20,311 nt of DNA. It comes from a virus. The stretch spans positions 1 to 20,311 of IMG/VR virus record IMGVR_UViG_3300006923_000169. One strand, given 5' to 3'. Position numbers and translations under genes: made by a program. Of the stretch, positions 1 to 13,143 are shown in pieces; position 1 is the first letter of the stretch, and every line of letters starts with the position of its first letter. A model generated the notes under the pieces. The model ran no database searches. It was not told where the DNA came from and was given only the letters and a program-made list of their open reading frames with translations.

Positions 1-474
1 AGGTAGTTTAATATTCTTAGTGTTGTCTTTGGTGATATTAGTAGTATTATCTTTATTGATTATATTAGGTAGTTTAATATTCTTAGTGTTGTCTTTGGTG
101 ATATTAGTAGTATTATCTTTATTGATATTAGTAGTATTATCTTTATTGGTTACATTAGGTAGTTTAATATTCTTAATATTCTTAGTGTTGTCTTTATTGG
201 TTACATTAGGTAGTTTAATATTCTTAATATTCTTAGTGTTGTCTTTGGTGATATTAGTAGTATTATCTTTATTGATTATATTAGGTAGTTTAATATTCTT
301 AGTGTTGTCTTTGGTGATATTCTTAGTGTTGTCTTTGGTGATATTCTTAGTGTTGTCTTTATTGATTACATTAGGTAGTTTAATATTCTTAGTGTTGTCT
401 TTGGTGATATTAGTAGTATTATTGATTACATTAGGTAGTTTAATATTCTTAGTGTTGTCTTTGGTGATATTCTT
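1..474 (-). repeat. In-frame tandem repeat encoding KDNTKNIT / KNIKLPN units
   Basis: On the minus strand the sequence is a mosaic of short units whose lengths are multiples of three. One type encodes KDNT(K/T)NI(T/N); it alternates with units encoding KNIKLPN(V/I)(I/T)N. Copies are nearly identical in DNA, with mainly silent or single-base differences (for example GAT versus GAC), which points to recent expansion by slippage or recombination that preserved the frame. The array reaches the left edge, so its full length is unknown. Confidence 0.9.
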
Positions 475-804
475 AGATGTTTGATGTGTTGAATTAATCC
501 TATTGGTTGAATTATAATTGTTGTTTGTTACGGGTGTATTTTGTATTTTTTGGGTATTTATATTCTTGGATGATAATAAGTCTATTTTTTTATCTATTTG
601 AGATAATTTTTTTTCGACAATTGGAAATACGCTATCAATTTTGGGTTTTGGGGTTTGTATGTCGGCATCTTTATCATTATTTGTAGGAGTGATAACAGAA
701 GGTATTTTTCGTTGGTTTGCTTTCTTTACATTGTTATGTTTACCGTCTTTTTTATCTTTGAAAAATGATAAAGTATGTGCTTTGATGCGTTTGTTGTTAT
801 TCAT
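1..804 (-). CDS. Repeat-rich phage protein, 3' end beyond the window
   Basis: This minus-strand frame is open for 268 codons from ATG at 804-802 to the left edge, so the C-terminus is missing. The protein starts MNNNKRIKAHTLSFFKDKK, has a basic, polar N-terminal region of about 110 residues (including VEKKLSQIDKKIDLL, a possible short coiled coil), then changes into a low-complexity Asn/Thr/Lys/Ile repeat that fills the rest. It starts 13 bases after the stop of the 67-residue gene and lies last in the leftward gp4-gp54-gp26 block. No strong ribosome binding site is visible, so translation may be coupled to the upstream gene. By position it could be a hub-associated, tape-measure or other virion protein, but nothing in the visible part identifies it. 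The opposite strand over the repeat is also open and would give a Leu/Val/Ile-rich product; I treat that as a mirror artefact. Confidence 0.7.
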   Translation of the reverse strand, partial: MNNNKRIKAHTLSFFKDKKDGKHNNVKKANQRKIPSVITPTNNDKDADIQTPKPKIDSVFPIVEKKLSQIDKKIDLLSSKNINTQKIQNTPVTNNNYNSTNRINSTHQTSKNITKDNTKNIKLPNVINNTTNITKDNTKNIKLPNVINKDNTKNITKDNTKNITKDNTKNIKLPNIINKDNTTNITKDNTKNIKNIKLPNVTNKDNTKNIKNIKLPNVTNKDNTTNINKDNTTNITKDNTKNIKLPNIINKDNTTNITKDNTKNIKLP

Positions 805-4808: not shown

Positions 4809-6977
4809 ATGGCAGAAGAAACACGAAAAAGACAAACACCAGCCGATATTGATATAAAATATATTAAAATTGCGAAACCGAACGAGTCATGGAACTATAA
4901 CAAAGTATTACAAGTATTGCCCAGTCCTGAAGACTCTCCCAAAAATATTTTTGAAAATTTAACTATTACTGAAAGTATATTCAACTCTGGAATAACTGGG
5001 ATTCTTAAAATTCACGATACAAATGTAGTAGGTGATTATTTCAATATGACTGGTAATGAACAGATAATGATTAGTTTTAACACACCAAACAAAGATAATT
5101 CGGAACACATTTTAACTTTTTGTGTCAATGATGTTAGACACATTCAAGATGAATCGGCACTTGCTTTGGATGGACCTTCTGTTAGATCAAATATGGGTTG
5201 GGAAATTTCATTTATATCATGTGAAGATTATTTGTTGAATTGGGAAGATCTTGAGTATATGGATAATGATTTTATCGGTAAAATTGCATTCGAAGGTGGT
5301 GATGATAAAGGGTTCGTGGATAAACTAGCAGAAAAATATTTCAACCCAAACACAACACAATTCTCTAAAGCACAAGAACCAATGGACATTGAAAATACAA
5401 GCAATTCTTTATGGTTGAAAAAGAATCAAAATATGTATCCGTGGGGAAAAGATGTTCATCCACCAATTCTTGGAAAGTTGATGAATAATCTCGCTGAAAA
5501 CGCCGTCTGTGATGAAGATACCTTCGGAGTGAATTATTTATTCTATGCAGATCTAAAGGGATGGCACTTTAAATCTATTAGAAAGATGATAAAAGATGGA
5601 TCGGAAGAAGGTGTCCTGGTTGGTGAACTTCAAGACGAGAGCAAGAACGAATATGTAATTTCTGATATGGAACATGATGAGCCGTGGCTTGGAGCTAATT
5701 CAATTTTGAAACATTCAGAAATCACCGAATATGATCATTTAAATGCATGGAATGATGGAGTATATTCATCTTATTATCAACTGATGAAACCATATTATGA
5801 TGATCCATATTTTGATTATATCGATTTTACAAGTCAACATACTGGTACTACAGCAGAAAATTGGGGTGATAGGGAAATTATAGACTATAGTTATCATCGA
5901 GAACAAGAACAATGGGGAGGACCCGAAAAAGGTGGTAGAGTAGAAAAGTTCAAATTAATTCCTGACCTTTGGGAAACCGATATAGAGTTCAAAAACAACG
6001 GAGAAGTAAAAAAGAAATCCAGAAGAAAATATGATGAAAGTGGAATATATGGATATTTTGATTCGCCGTATAATCATCCAAACGAAAAGCCTTACGATTT
6101 TATCGGATCAGATGCTCTACATGCAAAAACAGGAAAACAGAATGATATTTTATGGCAGACAATGTTTGATCAAACAAAACTTTCAGGAACCATCTTGAAA
6201 ACAATTCAAAAAGAAATTAAGGATCCTACAAGGGAAAATTACAAGTCTCATGTTGCTATGGTGAATTTAAAAGAAAAATTTAATGTATATCGTCATTCTA
6301 TATGTTGTGATGAACAAGCAATTAAAAACTTTGTATTTCTTGCTTGGGTAGATGATGCAAGAAAAATTCAAGATGATGCAAGAGGTGGAATATATGAATA
6401 TTCGTGGAAAGAAGTAGAAATTTGGCCTGTAGATTTCGTTGAAGAAATTAAAGGAGAAGAAGTTCCAGTTGATAGTCGTTCTCCTTTAAAAATAGTTATT
6501 CCAGAAAATGGAATGACAGGAGGATTTCATAATGAAGAGGATGAAAAATATAGCAATCCAGCATATAATATAAATGAATTATTAAATACAACAGATGGAG
6601 ATAATGTGTATGTTGGTCCTGGTGTAAATGCGGCTGATGAAGATCATAATGATTATCCCGAATCATATCAAATGATGCCTGTTGGTGGATTTTTTGAAAT
6701 TGGTGATGATGGAATTTCAATAGACCCTTGCGAACTACAAGACGAAGATGATAATGGCATCATGGATGGGCCGTGGACTGCAAGAGGACACATAGTTCAA
6801 ATGTATAGAATTCCAAATTATATTTTAGGAGAAATCAATGAAGATGGAGAAGTAGTTCGTGGTGGAATTGCACCAGTTGAATCGGATCCTGAAAATATTG
6901 ATCCGAAGATTCCTACAGACATTTTCTTTTTTGATGTTCCGAATGCCCACGATGGATTGTGTTCTTGCTTGTCATAG
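4809..6977 (+). CDS. 27: Baseplate hub protein, gp27-like N-terminal part, enlarged
   Basis: A 722-residue protein. Residues about 48-115 resemble the first domain of T4 gp27: a LTITESIFNSGITGILKIHD strand pair, then DYFNMTGNEQIMISFNTP and VNDVRHIQ, parallel to the T4 pattern LTMRDSLYGRNEGMLQFYD followed by KMDGNEIIQISVAN. Next come an ISFISCEDYLLN strand and a second module around LGKLMNNLAENA and NYLFYADLKGWHFKSI. gp27 is the trimeric hub ring linking spike and tube. The protein is nearly twice the T4 length (about 391 aa), with long acidic, aromatic insertions, and its very end is HDGLCSCLS. The closing domain of gp27 is not evident here but seems to be encoded at 12228-13073. The start is supported by AAGGGTGA upstream. 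Confidence 0.7.
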   Translation: MAEETRKRQTPADIDIKYIKIAKPNESWNYNKVLQVLPSPEDSPKNIFENLTITESIFNSGITGILKIHDTNVVGDYFNMTGNEQIMISFNTPNKDNSEHILTFCVNDVRHIQDESALALDGPSVRSNMGWEISFISCEDYLLNWEDLEYMDNDFIGKIAFEGGDDKGFVDKLAEKYFNPNTTQFSKAQEPMDIENTSNSLWLKKNQNMYPWGKDVHPPILGKLMNNLAENAVCDEDTFGVNYLFYADLKGWHFKSIRKMIKDGSEEGVLVGELQDESKNEYVISDMEHDEPWLGANSILKHSEITEYDHLNAWNDGVYSSYYQLMKPYYDDPYFDYIDFTSQHTGTTAENWGDREIIDYSYHREQEQWGGPEKGGRVEKFKLIPDLWETDIEFKNNGEVKKKSRRKYDESGIYGYFDSPYNHPNEKPYDFIGSDALHAKTGKQNDILWQTMFDQTKLSGTILKTIQKEIKDPTRENYKSHVAMVNLKEKFNVYRHSICCDEQAIKNFVFLAWVDDARKIQDDARGGIYEYSWKEVEIWPVDFVEEIKGEEVPVDSRSPLKIVIPENGMTGGFHNEEDEKYSNPAYNINELLNTTDGDNVYVGPGVNAADEDHNDYPESYQMMPVGGFFEIGDDGISIDPCELQDEDDNGIMDGPWTARGHIVQMYRIPNYILGEINEDGEVVRGGIAPVESDPENIDPKIPTDIFFFDVPNAHDGLCSCLS

Positions 6978-6995
6978 ATATAATACAAGTATACT

Positions 6996-9900
6996 ATGAG
7001 AACAAAGAAAACATGTTGTTGTTGCGGTGATAGAACCTGTAGGGGTGATGAATATCGTTATAATTCCACCGAAAATACCAATTGTAAAATATGTGCGCTG
7101 GGTGTTACGACTGTAAATGTTTCAGAGTATGAAGATTTTGCACCATCCGAGCCGTCTGCAAATCAGGGGGACGAAGTGTGGTTAGGAATGGATGGTGATG
7201 GTCATCCCGATAACTTATACATGGGGAATATTTGTTGGCATAATGGTCATGAGGGGTGGGATTATTATCCCAATGAATGTGAATGGAATAAGTGTTGGAA
7301 TGATTATGAATCGTTTGGATTATCTAATCCACCCAAAGTAAGTTTTTATCAATTTGATTCACCTTATGGTATTTTACCGTGGTCTCCAATTTCTTTTATG
7401 GATTGGAGAGATAATTGGAATGGACCATTATTACCTCAAGGTGATTGTACAATGCACTGTACCCAAGAAAACATAGGTTGTCACTCTTTGGCATTTGTTG
7501 GTGCAATTGGGAAAAATTTTGGTTCTACTGATTTAGCAGACGGGTTACCACTTTGTGGTTCAGACATTGTAACAGTTCCTCCACCCAGAAGCGAATGGGA
7601 CTGGATTCGGTCTTGGGTGAAAAGTGGTGGTAAACTTATTATTATGGGAGAGTCGAGTGGGAGTCCTATGTCTAGTATGCCCAGTTGCAGAACGAAAATG
7701 GATTTCTTTAATCCTGATTCATCATATTATACACAGAGATGTACCGACGCTATCAATTCTGAAGATACAATGAGTGGGGAAGAGGTTGCGTTGTTGTTGC
7801 AAGAATTTGCATTTTATATTGCTAGGCAGGATGATGAAGAAGAAGAGTCCATAAGATGGTTTGAATTTGAAAATGAGGAAGTAGAACCAGATAACTTTAT
7901 TAATAATTTTGAAGCTTACGTAGATGATGATGGAAATGAAACTGCAATCGTTCGCTCTTGTTGCCAAAAATCTAAAAGACCATTTATAAAAAGAGATTCG
8001 GTGGATGATCCCATGAAACCATTTTCTTTTCAATGTTCTTCAAGTAGTGGACTATTACCAAAAGGTAAAGGTAAAGGATTAGTAGGTCATTGCAACGGTG
8101 ATGGTTGTACTGTGGTATGGAAACCTAATGATTTGGGTGCTGTAGTGGTTGTATATGATTCTGATGTCTGGGGTGCTTCTAATTCTCAAATACCTTTAAG
8201 TTGGTGGGAACAAGAAGCACAATACCCACAACATCAAGAACTTGGATTGGGTGCTATTGAATTAAAAACTAGGGCATGCAATAATGACTTTTGGAATTTT
8301 ATGTGTGTTGACTTTCTTTCCGAAAATGCATATATTCCTTCTGAATGTGGAGATGAAGTATATTGGAAACATAAAGAATCTGATGATTATGAGTTTGGAG
8401 AAAATCCTTGCTTAAAAACAGCAAAGTGTTGTATACCAGATGGAAGTTGCATAGAAACAAATATTTGGGATTGTTGGGGATATACAGATTATAATGGTCG
8501 AGAATTACCAGGTACTTGGTATGGTTCAGAATTTATTCATCCAGATGGAAGAGGTGGTGGGGAATGTCAAAGCTGTGGTTCTTGTGAAGAATTTAAGAAG
8601 GGTCTTTGTTGTGTTGTTGACCCAGATGGATTGGGTTGTGGACACGATTGCTGTTTAGAGCTAGATAATGTTGGTCACGAAATGTATGAATATGAATGTA
8701 ACTGCTTGGTGAAATCAGACAATTATTCGTGGGTGAATGAAGTTGAGTGGAAACAAGGAGAAACTAATTGTGATATTTGTTTTGTAAAAGGTGCTTGCTG
8801 TACAGGAAATGAAATGTGCGAGGTTATGCGGGAAATTGAATGTAATAAATTATATGGACCTGAATTTTTTCATGGTGAAGATTCAACTTGCGATCCGGAG
8901 AATCCTTGTGAAATTCCTAGAGGTGCATGCTGTGATGGGTTCACTTGTATCTCTGACGTTACCGAGGACTTTTGCAATAGCAGCGGCGGAGAATATATGG
9001 GAGATGAAATGCCATGCGATGAAGATCTCTGCGAAGGTGATCCCGGTGCATGTTGTTTGCCAAATGGAAATTGCGTCTTTGATACTGAACATGATTGTAA
9101 TTCACTTGGAGGAACGTGGCAGGGCGCGAATGTGCAGTGCAATCAAGTGGATTGTGATATCAGTCAAGCATGCTGTATTCCTACTGGTGTTGTTGATTGT
9201 TACGAATGTAACGATATGATGCCTGATGCTTGCTATGGAGCCAGCGGCGAACCACAAGGGAATGGTATAATGTGTGATGATGATCCGTGTGATGAAAGTG
9301 GGTGTGGAACGGGAGCGTGTTGTTATTGGACCGGTTCTCAATGTTCATGTTTTGAAGCGGAAGAAGAAGATTGTGATTGCTACCCAGGGTGGGATGATTG
9401 TTTTAAACCGGGAAAGAATTGTGGTGAAGTAGATTGCTGTGGAATTTGTTGCGATAGAAGCAATGGAGATTGTTTGAGTGGTGGGGCCTGTACCATTCCA
9501 GAATGGGTATGCAACAGTTACGATAACGAACTGTTCATACCATGTACCGATTGTGGATGTATTTCTTCGTGTAGTGGTGAATATACAAGTTGTGAAGGTG
9601 TAGGAATATGTTGTGTAGAAGAAGAATGTGAAGACGTAACGTCTTCACAAGAATGTATAAAGTTGAATGGGATTTATACAATTGGTACACAATGTGCTGA
9701 TGTATCATCTTCGTTTTGCCGTTTGGGTGCTTGTTGTGTTGAAGAAGAATGTGTAGAGATAACGATAAAATCTGCGTGTGATGGCACTTGGGTTGAAGGT
9801 ATTTTGGATTGCGGTGAAGTGGATTGTGGTATTGGTGCTTGTTGTTATTATCAAAATGTAATCCAACCGCATGAATGTGAAGATATGCTGTTGCAGGTGT

Positions 9901-12209
9901 GCATTGACAAGTTTGATGGTGAATTTCATAGTGGCACATTATGTGAGGATGATGCGGACTTGTGTATTCCGACAGGTGCGTGTTGCTTTGAAAATGGGGG
10001 TGATATGCAATGCGCTTGTTGTATGACCGAGGACGATTGTGAATATGTGTACAACGGTGTTTGGATTGGAGGTGTTGATTCTTGCGATGACATAGATTGT
10101 GACAACATCGGACCCTGTTGTATTCAACCACCCAACTTTCCAATGGATTGCAGTTACTTACGTTTTAGTGAGTGTGAGATGATGAATGAAGATGCTTGCC
10201 TTAAGGTTGATGGATTTCCTGGGCCTAATGGAACAGATTGTGCTGGGTATTCATGTGCGGGAACTTGTTGTGCAGAAATTGAATACTTGGACGATGGGTG
10301 GATGACATTGTATTGGTGCGATGAAAGCGTGTCTGAACATTTTTGTGATTCAATTGTACTTGCAGATTGCTTCATAGACCAGGGTTATAACGTCTGGTAT
10401 GCTACCGCGAACTATTCAATGTTGGAGGATTGTTGTTGGTGTCAGGAATCTGGTGGCACGACTGCTCCGTGGGAGGGCCCGTGTTGTTTCGGCACTGATT
10501 GTGATGACAACTACACCGAATGCGAATGCAATGCAACCCCAGACGGGGTTTGGATGGGCATAGTAGATAACCTCGGTTGCAATAATACTGAATTGTGTGG
10601 GGTTAGCGCCTGTTGCATCCAGTCTAATATGAATGGCAATCCTGTGGCCGGATGCGTCATGATGGATGCTGACGAATGTACAGATTTTAATGGCCAGTCC
10701 GGCACAGTGTTTGGTGATAATTTGGTTGCCTATCCGTACCTTGGAGTCCATTGTGATGACAATCCGTGTCTGGTAGGTTGTTGTGTAAAGTGGTGGGACA
10801 CGTACATGGGATGTAATCCTAGTACAATCGGTGATTGTGACTATGACGATGGAGATTACTACACAAACCCCATCGAGTGGTTTTGGGATGGACAATGGTG
10901 GAACAATTATTTCCGATGCGCCTATGATGGAGATAACAACGAGTTGTTGTGTCCCCAGGCTTGTTGCGAAGGTACAAATTGCACCAACACCATTTACTCC
11001 GACTGCTGGGGTGATGTTGTGTGGGGAGAAGATTGCGATTGGGATGGCGATCCATGTATTGACACAGGGGCTTGTTGCACCCCGAATTCTGGGTGTTCAT
11101 CAAAGACTCAAGCAGAATGCGTCAGTAACCACAACCCCCCATATTATCCCACCCACTGGATATCTGAAGATTGCGGAGATGTGGAATGTGACGATTATTT
11201 TGGTGCTTGTTGCGATTGGTGGAATGTAGAGTGTTACGAAACCACTGAAGACGAGTGTCCTGGGGATGCGGAATTTGAACTAGGCATCAAGTGTCATCAA
11301 ACGCAAGAAGTATGCATGCAGGTCCATGCCTGTTGTTGGTCGGACGGCAGCTGTGACGATGAAATATGGTTTGACTGTTGGGATAACTGGGGTAACTGGG
11401 ACGCAGATCATCTTTGTAGTGACTGGGGTTTTAATTGTGCTGAAACTGGTGCATGTTGTTATGATGATGGGGTTTGTGTGGATAGTTCAACGGAATCAAA
11501 TTGCATATACTGGGGTGGCACATGGTGGGGAGAAGGTTCTTTTTGTTGGGAGTGGGAGTGTGCAATCGCAAATGGTGCATGTTGTTATGGAGGTTGGGAT
11601 GATTGCACTGAAGACACTTCCCAAAGCGCATGCAATGCAGGTGGTGGTAGTTTTATGGGTGCGGAGAGTGCCTGTATTGATTGTGTGAGTGCTTGTTGCT
11701 ATCAACATCCCATTTATGGACCGTATTGTGCTGAGGTGGCGGCATGGGATTGCTGGGCGAATTACTGGAATGGAGAACCCCATCCGTATTCTGGCTGCAA
11801 TGGTGTTGGCTACTGCTGGGATTATACTGGGTGTTGTTTGGGGAATTGTGAATGGTCATATTGCTGGTATACTGACAACACAGATTGGCATTGGCATGAT
11901 GAGACTATACGGTGGATCGATTGTGATGGAGAATGGTACATGCATGATTCTTGCGGATGGGATTGCGATTGGTGTTATTTAACAAATCCAGAAGGAAGAG
12001 AAGATGAACCAAGTAGAACACGGAGCAGAACACAGAAACCCGATGGAGGCATTGGTGGTCTGGGTGGAGCGACCAATAATGAATCGAGCAATAAACGAAA
12101 CGATAGCAGACTAATACCGCCAAGCGAACCAGAATGTTCTCAAAAATGCAAAGACGCTGGATGTGATTGTCATTGTTTGGAAACAAATAACGGAATAGTT
12201 TGCTTATAA
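6996..12209 (+). CDS. Giant cysteine-rich modular virion protein (1737 aa)
   Basis: I do not recognise this protein as a known phage family. It begins MRTKKTCCCCGDRTC. Residues about 160-280 could be an alpha/beta domain: a CHSLAFVGAIG strand, SDIVTVPPP, the helix-strand pair EWDWIRSWVKSGGKLIIMGE (the form seen in glutamine-amidotransferase-like folds), and a helix EEVALLLQEFAFYIA. From about residue 475 to 1660 it is about two dozen modules with paired cysteines. A linker rich in Arg/Ser/Gly follows, then a closing cysteine cluster (CSQKCKDAGCDCHC). My hand count is about 200 cysteines (roughly 12%), with many Asp, Glu and Trp and few Lys. There is no signal peptide. It lies between the two hub-like genes in the same orientation, so it is probably virion-associated. 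No Shine-Dalgarno sequence precedes the ATG; TATAAT lies at 6979-6984. Confidence 0.85.
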   Translation: MRTKKTCCCCGDRTCRGDEYRYNSTENTNCKICALGVTTVNVSEYEDFAPSEPSANQGDEVWLGMDGDGHPDNLYMGNICWHNGHEGWDYYPNECEWNKCWNDYESFGLSNPPKVSFYQFDSPYGILPWSPISFMDWRDNWNGPLLPQGDCTMHCTQENIGCHSLAFVGAIGKNFGSTDLADGLPLCGSDIVTVPPPRSEWDWIRSWVKSGGKLIIMGESSGSPMSSMPSCRTKMDFFNPDSSYYTQRCTDAINSEDTMSGEEVALLLQEFAFYIARQDDEEEESIRWFEFENEEVEPDNFINNFEAYVDDDGNETAIVRSCCQKSKRPFIKRDSVDDPMKPFSFQCSSSSGLLPKGKGKGLVGHCNGDGCTVVWKPNDLGAVVVVYDSDVWGASNSQIPLSWWEQEAQYPQHQELGLGAIELKTRACNNDFWNFMCVDFLSENAYIPSECGDEVYWKHKESDDYEFGENPCLKTAKCCIPDGSCIETNIWDCWGYTDYNGRELPGTWYGSEFIHPDGRGGGECQSCGSCEEFKKGLCCVVDPDGLGCGHDCCLELDNVGHEMYEYECNCLVKSDNYSWVNEVEWKQGETNCDICFVKGACCTGNEMCEVMREIECNKLYGPEFFHGEDSTCDPENPCEIPRGACCDGFTCISDVTEDFCNSSGGEYMGDEMPCDEDLCEGDPGACCLPNGNCVFDTEHDCNSLGGTWQGANVQCNQVDCDISQACCIPTGVVDCYECNDMMPDACYGASGEPQGNGIMCDDDPCDESGCGTGACCYWTGSQCSCFEAEEEDCDCYPGWDDCFKPGKNCGEVDCCGICCDRSNGDCLSGGACTIPEWVCNSYDNELFIPCTDCGCISSCSGEYTSCEGVGICCVEEECEDVTSSQECIKLNGIYTIGTQCADVSSSFCRLGACCVEEECVEITIKSACDGTWVEGILDCGEVDCGIGACCYYQNVIQPHECEDMLLQVCIDKFDGEFHSGTLCEDDADLCIPTGACCFENGGDMQCACCMTEDDCEYVYNGVWIGGVDSCDDIDCDNIGPCCIQPPNFPMDCSYLRFSECEMMNEDACLKVDGFPGPNGTDCAGYSCAGTCCAEIEYLDDGWMTLYWCDESVSEHFCDSIVLADCFIDQGYNVWYATANYSMLEDCCWCQESGGTTAPWEGPCCFGTDCDDNYTECECNATPDGVWMGIVDNLGCNNTELCGVSACCIQSNMNGNPVAGCVMMDADECTDFNGQSGTVFGDNLVAYPYLGVHCDDNPCLVGCCVKWWDTYMGCNPSTIGDCDYDDGDYYTNPIEWFWDGQWWNNYFRCAYDGDNNELLCPQACCEGTNCTNTIYSDCWGDVVWGEDCDWDGDPCIDTGACCTPNSGCSSKTQAECVSNHNPPYYPTHWISEDCGDVECDDYFGACCDWWNVECYETTEDECPGDAEFELGIKCHQTQEVCMQVHACCWSDGSCDDEIWFDCWDNWGNWDADHLCSDWGFNCAETGACCYDDGVCVDSSTESNCIYWGGTWWGEGSFCWEWECAIANGACCYGGWDDCTEDTSQSACNAGGGSFMGAESACIDCVSACCYQHPIYGPYCAEVAAWDCWANYWNGEPHPYSGCNGVGYCWDYTGCCLGNCEWSYCWYTDNTDWHWHDETIRWIDCDGEWYMHDSCGWDCDWCYLTNPEGREDEPSRTRSRTQKPDGGIGGLGGATNNESSNKRNDSRLIPPSEPECSQKCKDAGCDCHCLETNNGIVCL
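8418..11985 (+). repeat. Array of about 24-25 cysteine-pair modules
   Basis: The translated array repeats a degenerate pattern: (G/S/Q)-A-C-C, 3-10 residues, C, about 5-7 residues often with T and D/E, C, then G-x-(W/F)-x-G, C, 2-5 residues, C. Clear copies include GACCLPNGNC...GGTWQG, GACCYDDGVC...GGTWWGEG and GACCTGNEMC. A typical copy has six cysteines, an even number suited to three disulfides or to metal binding. Copies are diverged in DNA and vary from about 35 to 60 residues, so the array is old. Similar GACC...C...GG.W.G modules occur in secreted proteins of several bacterial groups (recall only). Confidence 0.85.
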
Positions 12210-12227: not shown

Positions 12228-13073
12228 ATGGCAAAACATGATTTTTTAGTAAAACTTACACACTTTGCAAACACCGATTGGCCCACAGTTAGATTAGGTC
12301 ATTCTGTCGGTGCATTCGATGATAAGTATCCATGTGCAAATCCAGAAGGGCCTGTGGATAATTCGGGTTGTAGTGATCCTGAATCACCCGATTATGACCC
12401 AAATAATCCTCTTTGTATGTGCCCCTGTCAAGAATTGAATCCTGCACTCCATAGTAATTTGGTCGATTTTCCGTGGTATGTTGATATTTTTACTGGATTC
12501 GGTGCTGGGGCTGCAATTTGGAATTGGTTGATGGGAAATTCCGAGACTGTTAGAGAACCTACAATCGAACAACTTAAAGAATCGGCGGAATCTATAAAAG
12601 AATGTGATTTAATTAAAAGTAAACTTGGCGAATCTTGGATGGGATGTCTATGGAAAACACAAAATCATCCTAGCAGCTGTAATTGTCCCTGTGTGGGTGA
12701 GGACTTCAAAAAATATATCGAATATTCTAGAACATATTCTACCTATTGGGACACACCACCAACGACTCCTTTATGGAGAGCATCTCAAATGTCTCTTGCA
12801 CGGGCGCAAACGTCTGTTATTGTGGTTAATGGTGATTTGACGTTGAGACCCGGACATTTAATTTATATTTCCGCCCATCAAGCTGGGGCGATGGGTAAAA
12901 CGAAAAAGTTTTCTGGGCGTTGGTTGGTGTCTGATATTTCCCACATTATTCAAGGAATGCAACACAAGATGGCACTGAAATTGATTAGAGATAGTTCTCC
13001 TATAGATCCAAATAAATCTGAGTTGGATGGAAAATCGTGGTGGGAAAAAATATGGAACTTTATTACCGCGTGA
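12228..13073 (+). CDS. Hub protein resembling the C-terminal part of gp27
   Basis: A 281-residue protein. Residues about 165-265 resemble the last part of T4 gp27: a long helix (LWRASQMSLARAQTSV), then VNGDLTLRPGHLIYIS, a loop, FSGRWLVSDISHIIQG and the closing strand HKMALKLIRDSSPIDPNK. These correspond to the T4 run with NFNLTPGVKIIF, EFYVDEVIHEL and LYMFTNATKLETIDPVK. The first half is different: an N-terminal segment, two cysteine clusters (CANPEGPVDNSGCSDP and LCMCPCQE), a Gly/Ala hydrophobic segment VDIFTGFGAGAAIWNWLMG, a helix, and a third cluster SCNCPCVGE just before the gp27-like domain. It may complete the hub ring together with the 722-residue protein. AGGAG at 12217-12221 supports the start. 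Confidence 0.65.
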   Translation: MAKHDFLVKLTHFANTDWPTVRLGHSVGAFDDKYPCANPEGPVDNSGCSDPESPDYDPNNPLCMCPCQELNPALHSNLVDFPWYVDIFTGFGAGAAIWNWLMGNSETVREPTIEQLKESAESIKECDLIKSKLGESWMGCLWKTQNHPSSCNCPCVGEDFKKYIEYSRTYSTYWDTPPTTPLWRASQMSLARAQTSVIVVNGDLTLRPGHLIYISAHQAGAMGKTKKFSGRWLVSDISHIIQGMQHKMALKLIRDSSPIDPNKSELDGKSWWEKIWNFITA

Positions 13074-13143
13074 ACATAACATAATATGCTTACATAAATA
13101 ATTTTCTTGCATTATTATTTATACATATAACAAAGGATAGTAA
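13074..13143 (+). promoter_or_regulatory. Intergenic region with candidate promoter for gp25
   Basis: This 70-base gap is one of the larger ones in the rightward block. It holds two near-matches to the late octamer, CATAAATA (13093-13100) and TATACATA (13120-13127), each with one mismatch. The second would give a leader of about 11 bases starting at the ribosome binding site AAGGA (13133-13137). No terminator-like hairpin is visible. A promoter for the gp25-gp6 wedge genes is likely on layout, weak on sequence. Confidence 0.4.

Follow-up and report, generated by a model that had tools for sequence, protein, structure and literature searches.

Genomic context of gene X

The left end of the window (the whole stretch of 20,311 nucleotides analysed here) carries the 5′ part of a gene, hereafter gene X, that is a candidate for a tape measure-type tail gene. 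Gene X lies on the minus strand (positions 1–804), starts with an ATG at position 804 and runs off the left edge; the ORF list gives this minus-strand frame (804 to 1) as 268 codons without a stop, open past the edge. It consists of a non-repeat N-terminal region (475–804, minus strand), with two helices predicted at low confidence, and of a modular minisatellite array (1–474, minus strand). Upstream of X on the same strand, comparison with PHROGs detected a gp51-type baseplate hub assembly catalyst as immediate neighbour (818–1021; phrog_634, E 5e-20), followed by a gp26-type baseplate hub protein/chaperone (1033–1731; phrog_150, E 3.9e-57), a tail tube protein (1758–2402; phrog_45, E 1.6e-19) and a head closure/completion protein (2432–2866; phrog_218, E 1.5e-54). 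Adjoining the two hub genes and the tail tube gene, X is encoded in a tail module, and PHROGs matches on the divergent strand of the window correspond to tube cap, wedge and hub genes. The initial annotation, made from the sequence alone, had described the array as a minisatellite that preserves the frame of a gene within a virion block, and the matches of the neighbouring genes to hub, hub catalyst, tail tube and head closure families bear this out.

The gp26-type protein matched 646 phage records in tblastn searches, all of them below 60% identity and mostly from cyanophages. The whole X proteins (those of the window and of the related contigs L005, L008 and L010, described below) matched no family in PHROGs or Pfam; such a match would count as evidence for a tape measure protein but is not strictly needed for that assignment. 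The tape measure protein (TMP) of T4, a phage of similar kind with a broadly similar hub gene neighbourhood, is gp29; the gene order around gp51 in our locus differs from that of T4.

Elsewhere in the window, the hub/tail family phrog_350 matches two separate ORFs on the plus strand (4809–6977 and 12228–13073). The two are separated by a cysteine-rich ORF of 1737 aa (6996–12209), an arrangement that looks like a split hub gene, and the order in the L005 contig is similar, with an ORF of 1384 aa.

A real and modular repeat array

A scan for the gp26-type neighbour turned up a second contig, G001 (IMGVR_UViG_3300037634_003492, 29,763 bases), in which 9,731 bases are identical to the window, including all 474 nt of the array. 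The two contigs align over 14,627 bases in piece L018, with 0 mismatches and one 5-base gap; in the overlapping piece L019, the alignment covers 6,684 bases at 100% identity. The gap, at window position 13080, is the only difference seen between them and is intergenic, between the second hub ORF and a gp25-type gene. Right of the window, G001 encodes two ORFs of about 1010–1024 aa (L019, 9489–15610) with collagen-like GPTGPTG stretches; they share a cysteine-rich GACC module type with the 1737-aa ORF of the window.

G001 adds 378 nt of array to the left of the window, and the frame stays open to the end of this contig. The array thus runs past the left edge, as the initial annotation had proposed, and the gene, when read leftwards as it had advised, shows no stop in the added part. 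The combined sequence reads through 394 codons with no stop. Of these, 284 (852 nt) belong to the array, which comprises at least 284 residues, as both contigs break off within it. Two exact-pattern scans of viral contigs for the far end of the array found G001 as the sole contig, and a degenerate pattern also matched one unrelated contig (L015), with one match only.

Tandem Repeats Finder reported rows with scores of 232–709 and periods of 51–216 over the window array, and the longest exact repeat within positions 1–474 is 98 nt long, compared with a maximum of 18 in 200 dinucleotide shuffles. The agreement of the two contigs over all 474 nt speaks against random assembly error, and the repeat array is confirmed as real. 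It is a mosaic of the modules KDNTKNI, KLPN(V/I)(I/T)N and KDNTTNIT with an optional extra KNI, and a further module, NRNKTAINL, is present leftwards in G001. With module boundaries set by our own splitting, the array divides into 25 pieces of 13 kinds, two edge pieces among them; apart from the edge pieces, these are 8, 9, 13, 14, 16, 17 or 20 residues long, and the repeat periods in the window array are 8–22 residues. Seven of the 13 kinds recur, every one of them with a single DNA spelling, so that these copies are young or kept alike; the spelling differs a little between kinds (e.g., the VIN piece has either ATC or ATT). The near-identity of the copies, noted from the outset, therefore holds within each recurring module, and the simple alternation of KDNTKNIT and KNIKLPN units gives way to the mosaic. 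All pieces have whole-codon lengths and the 394-codon frame is open, in agreement with the earlier remark that every copy-length change is a multiple of three.

The opposite strand is also open over the array (2–484, plus strand), with 160 codons in the window, as previously noticed, and a longest run of 286 codons in G001. The simplest cause is that the repeat unit contains no stop in that frame; since this accounts for the plus-strand open frame, we rejected it as a gene and consider it a by-product of the repeat.

Relatives of X

Relatives were found through gp26, X being in these contigs the gene that follows gp51. Their X proteins comprise 479 aa (L005, L006 and L012), 453 aa (L008), 418 aa (L007), 466 aa (L010 and L011) or 485 aa (L022), and combine a spacer rich in N, T, K and I with a conserved C-terminus. 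Truncated copies are present in L009 and L021, both of the L010 type, and in L106, which covers the first 338 residues of L022; apart from L106, six further X matches lie in already known contigs. In Smith-Waterman comparisons, the N-terminus of the window X scored 113, 115 and 108 against X of L005, L008 and L007, respectively, scores that none of 1000 shuffles reached in any of the three cases, and BLASTP of the window X against L005 gave an E value of 0.001. The similarity to L010 is weak (24 of 1000 shuffles reach the score) and none was detectable between the window N-terminus and L022 (329 of 1000). The X proteins of L022 and L010 are themselves 43% identical in their alignment. A single-strand-DNA-binding-type gene follows X on the other strand in L005 (where it matches phrog_224), L008 and L010. 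A protein-family scan of genome contigs for X relatives yielded 227 candidate stretches, none of which was confirmed, and neither the full-length X of L005 nor its C-terminus had a match among 50,697 phage records.

Similarity of the C-terminus to tape measure proteins

The C-terminus of the L010 X protein matched in tblastn the tail tape measure protein of Paenibacillus phage PG1 (E 2e-6). Among the matches listed, most of the annotated ones are tape measure proteins, weaker than PG1, and some are annotated as minor tail protein or carry no annotation. For the C-terminus of L022, the same type of search (E up to 0.1) retrieved eight records, five of them annotated as tape measure, the best match (E 1e-3) being located in an unannotated record. 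Against PHROGs (E up to 1), four of the seven families listed for the L010 C-terminus are tape measure families (best E 0.0009), as are all three for L022 (best E 0.0027); these tape measure matches all lie at the C-terminal end of the profile. The L005 C-terminus matched no PHROGs family within the same limit, and a search of five records for phrog_1535 was negative in all five.

Profile-profile comparison of six X C-termini with five TMP C-termini gave a Prob of 93.4 (E 2.5e-7, 42 columns). Since the five TMP rows had been picked from the tblastn matches of L010, this test lacks independence where L010 and L022 are concerned; ten column shuffles of the six-row profile gave a Prob of at most 0.17. 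The four L005-type rows alone reached only a Prob of 53 (E 1.4e-4) against the TMP profile, and at most 1.15 in ten column shuffles. The motif common to the X and TMP C-termini reads roughly KIP-lA-GG-a--PTiAqiGD...PEi(V/I)(T/A)PlSK. The conserved C-terminus of the relatives includes PEI(V/I)TP and WRRGxG. In the contigs of L010 (55 kb) and L005 (50 kb), no ORF of 250 aa or more other than X has the C-terminal motif. The motif was not matched anywhere in G001, and the C-terminus of X itself lies in neither the window nor G001; by analogy with its relatives, the X protein of the window phage would end in a similar domain. X has no strongly hydrophobic stretch (19-residue maxima of 0.60 in L010 and 0.78 in L005). 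Hydrophobic segments are usual in TMPs, and we do not take them as required for all of these proteins.

Position of tape measure-type genes in T4-like loci

From 588 confirmed gp26 relatives we kept 80 loci, some of which represent the same virus twice (e.g., L023 and L012), and scanned them for VPAxLxxGE(F/Y)(V/I) or PExxxP, motifs that we take to be typical for TMPs. Among complete genes of 250 aa or more that come first after gp26/gp51, 23 of 50 contain such a motif (23 of 54 with a limit of 150 aa), and it is present in none of 33 second genes or 149 other ORFs of the same 80 T4-like loci. When seven of the first genes were compared with PHROGs, two matched tape measure families (L027, E 3.5e-7; L090, E 1.4e-6); those of L036, L024 and L066 had no match at 1e-5. 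Homology and position together give the assignment of gene X as a tape measure-type tail protein fair but not complete support.

At the same position in S-RIM8 (L002, 6636–11674), two large proteins encoded after gp51 match phrog_790 and phrog_1200, which are labelled endolysin. For proteins at a tape measure position, this label may be misleading.

Variation of the repeats among relatives

The number of KTIEKH units is six in L005, five in L008 and three in L007, and relatives that differ in unit number are about 86–88% identical at the DNA level. The repeat period is 13 aa in L005 and L008 and 10 aa in L022, where an unlike repeat, PAPTIQNHIN, is present in 3.7 copies; no clear array is visible by eye at the spacer position of L010. 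The spacer of L005 also contains a second, separate 18-base repeat of the ITKNNN type (9593–9704, 6.2 copies).

The contigs of L005 and L012 differ at two of 12,438 bases, both within the array, and those of L005 and L006 at two of 7,953 bases, at the same two sites. These sites (9263 and 9302 in L005) are 39 bases, i.e., one unit, apart and occupy the matching place in adjacent units; the number of units is equal in the three contigs. Such differences between adjacent units suggest unit turnover. They fit a duplication or conversion of units, or else a mixture in the sample that the assembler resolved differently. L022 and L106 also differ at two bases (out of 4,014), neither of them within the array, and the window and G001 show no copy-number difference over the 474 nt that they share. 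Slippage, invoked in the initial annotation as the source of length variation, is thus plausible in view of the different unit numbers and adjacent-unit differences among relatives, and finds no counterpart in the comparison of the window with G001.

Composition and predicted structure of the spacer

The spacers of the window/G001, L005, L008, L010 and L022 contain 16–28% Asn, 12–17% Thr and 11–19% Lys, and the window array and the other four spacers carry a charge of +8 to +11 per 100 aa. Thirteen of the 14 other ORFs of the window encode proteins with a net negative charge; only the head completion protein does not follow this pattern. The richness in N, K and I is partly expected from AT-rich DNA. 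A passage of a review describes tail tubes as lined by negatively charged residues (PMC9022992), and a positively charged tape would therefore suit the lumen.

Two AlphaFold models, each resting on six sequences and therefore weak evidence, had a mean pLDDT of 38–40. They show no helix in the spacer, where the pLDDT is about 30; short helices are predicted for the N-terminus and for some parts of the C-terminal half of X. Over the array, the model has no secondary structure, at very low confidence and with a shallow alignment, which fits the flexible spacer proposed in the initial annotation.

Possible function of X and of its repeats

Our analyses suggest that X is probably a tape measure-type tail protein of a T4-like phage, with the array as its spacer. 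The terminal parts of X would then act as anchors, one at either end of the tail: an N-terminal part of about 110 residues and a C-terminal part of about 200 residues, seen in the relatives only, whose TMP-type motif would sit at the baseplate hub. Between them, a disordered, positively charged tape rich in Lys, Asn and Thr would run inside the tube. As the modules have lengths divisible by three, gaining or losing units, by slippage or unequal recombination, would keep the frame and alter the length of the spacer. X would in that case set the length of the tail, and this length may change upon gain or loss of units.

A protein with the same TMP-like hub motif could also carry its repeats as a tolerated, non-functional expansion of a linker, without any readout in tail length. 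The predicted disorder of the spacer agrees with this alternative, as do the variation of repeat sequence and period between relatives and the lack of a clear array by eye in L010; however, the total length of X varies narrowly (418–485 aa) in five distinct relatives, and charge and N/T/K/I bias are kept across unlike repeats, so that we consider it rather unlikely, if the most serious of the alternatives. A different virion protein, e.g., a hub-tail linker or an internal tail protein, with the tape measure encoded elsewhere, would agree with the observation that X has neither the hydrophobic nor the long helical segments of classic tape measures, and the genomes are incomplete. It is nevertheless improbable given the TMP-type C-terminus of the relatives, the position of X after gp26/gp51 and the fact that two contigs of 50–55 kb contain no second ORF with the motif. 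Finally, both contigs end within the array and short-read assemblies cope badly with such repeats, which could have produced a false expansion or a wrong order of units. An artefact of this kind is very improbable, since the 474 nt read identically in two contigs that elsewhere show a 5-base gap relative to each other, 394 codons are open, and relatives have in-frame arrays at the corresponding position of complete genes.

The interpretation put forward in the initial annotation is, as a whole, partly supported; the tape measure-type identity, absent from it, gives a different meaning to any change in length. A bolder extension of the tape measure reading would be a class of T4-like marine phages with a disordered, positive and fast-evolving tape in place of a helical rod, held by charge in a negative tube, in which the minisatellite generates a spread of tail lengths within a population, adjustable by gain or loss of units. 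We regard this extension as speculative and unlikely.

Comparison with known systems

Tandem repeats of 11 residues (or 11/18) are described for TMPs such as that of TP901-1 (PMC5099701) and the Clostridium and Staphylococcus sets of Belcaid et al. (2011; PMC3271669). As in these TMPs, the repeats of X are located in the middle of the protein, may change in number by duplication or loss and lie between fixed ends. Unlike these TMPs, with their fixed period of 11 or 11/18 residues and W/F markers, X varies in period; W is absent and F is rare, the array itself containing neither, and proline occurs within units. Moreover, its DNA copies are nearly identical, the phage is T4-like and the spacer is predicted to be disordered, in contrast to the extended helix of these TMPs.

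An in-frame minisatellite is also reported for the gene clg55 of corynephage CL31, with units of 42 bp (14 aa) and plaques that have 4, 6 or 8 of them (PMC8002715). Both cases involve a tail gene and an array beyond the resolution of the assembly. However, clg55 is annotated there as a minor tail protein, the tape measure of CL31 being Clg58, and its sequence is unrelated to X; copy-number variation was shown in CL31, and for the window only an in-frame array was read. Repeats in TMPs and variable minisatellites in tail genes are thus each already known separately. Their combination in T4-like phages, with a tape predicted to be disordered and without 11-residue repeats, would be new. Our literature search found no paper joining a tape measure with such a DNA minisatellite; a paper on Brevibacterium tandem repeats (10.1111/1462-2920.15113) may bear on the question.

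If the tape measure reading is correct, these phages would provide a natural experiment on tail measuring, in which the ruler has been swapped for varied low-complexity repeats and the ends have been kept. They could serve to test the need for a helical tape and the variation of tail length driven by repeats within one population; assemblies of such phages are to be viewed with caution, as they break at gene X. The tape of TP901-1 acts as an extended helix with 0.145 nm per residue (PMC5099701). If this value held for X, a unit of 22 residues would account for about 3 nm of tail length, and the array as far as it was read for about 41 nm; a disordered or stretched tape would give a length per unit other than about 3 nm.
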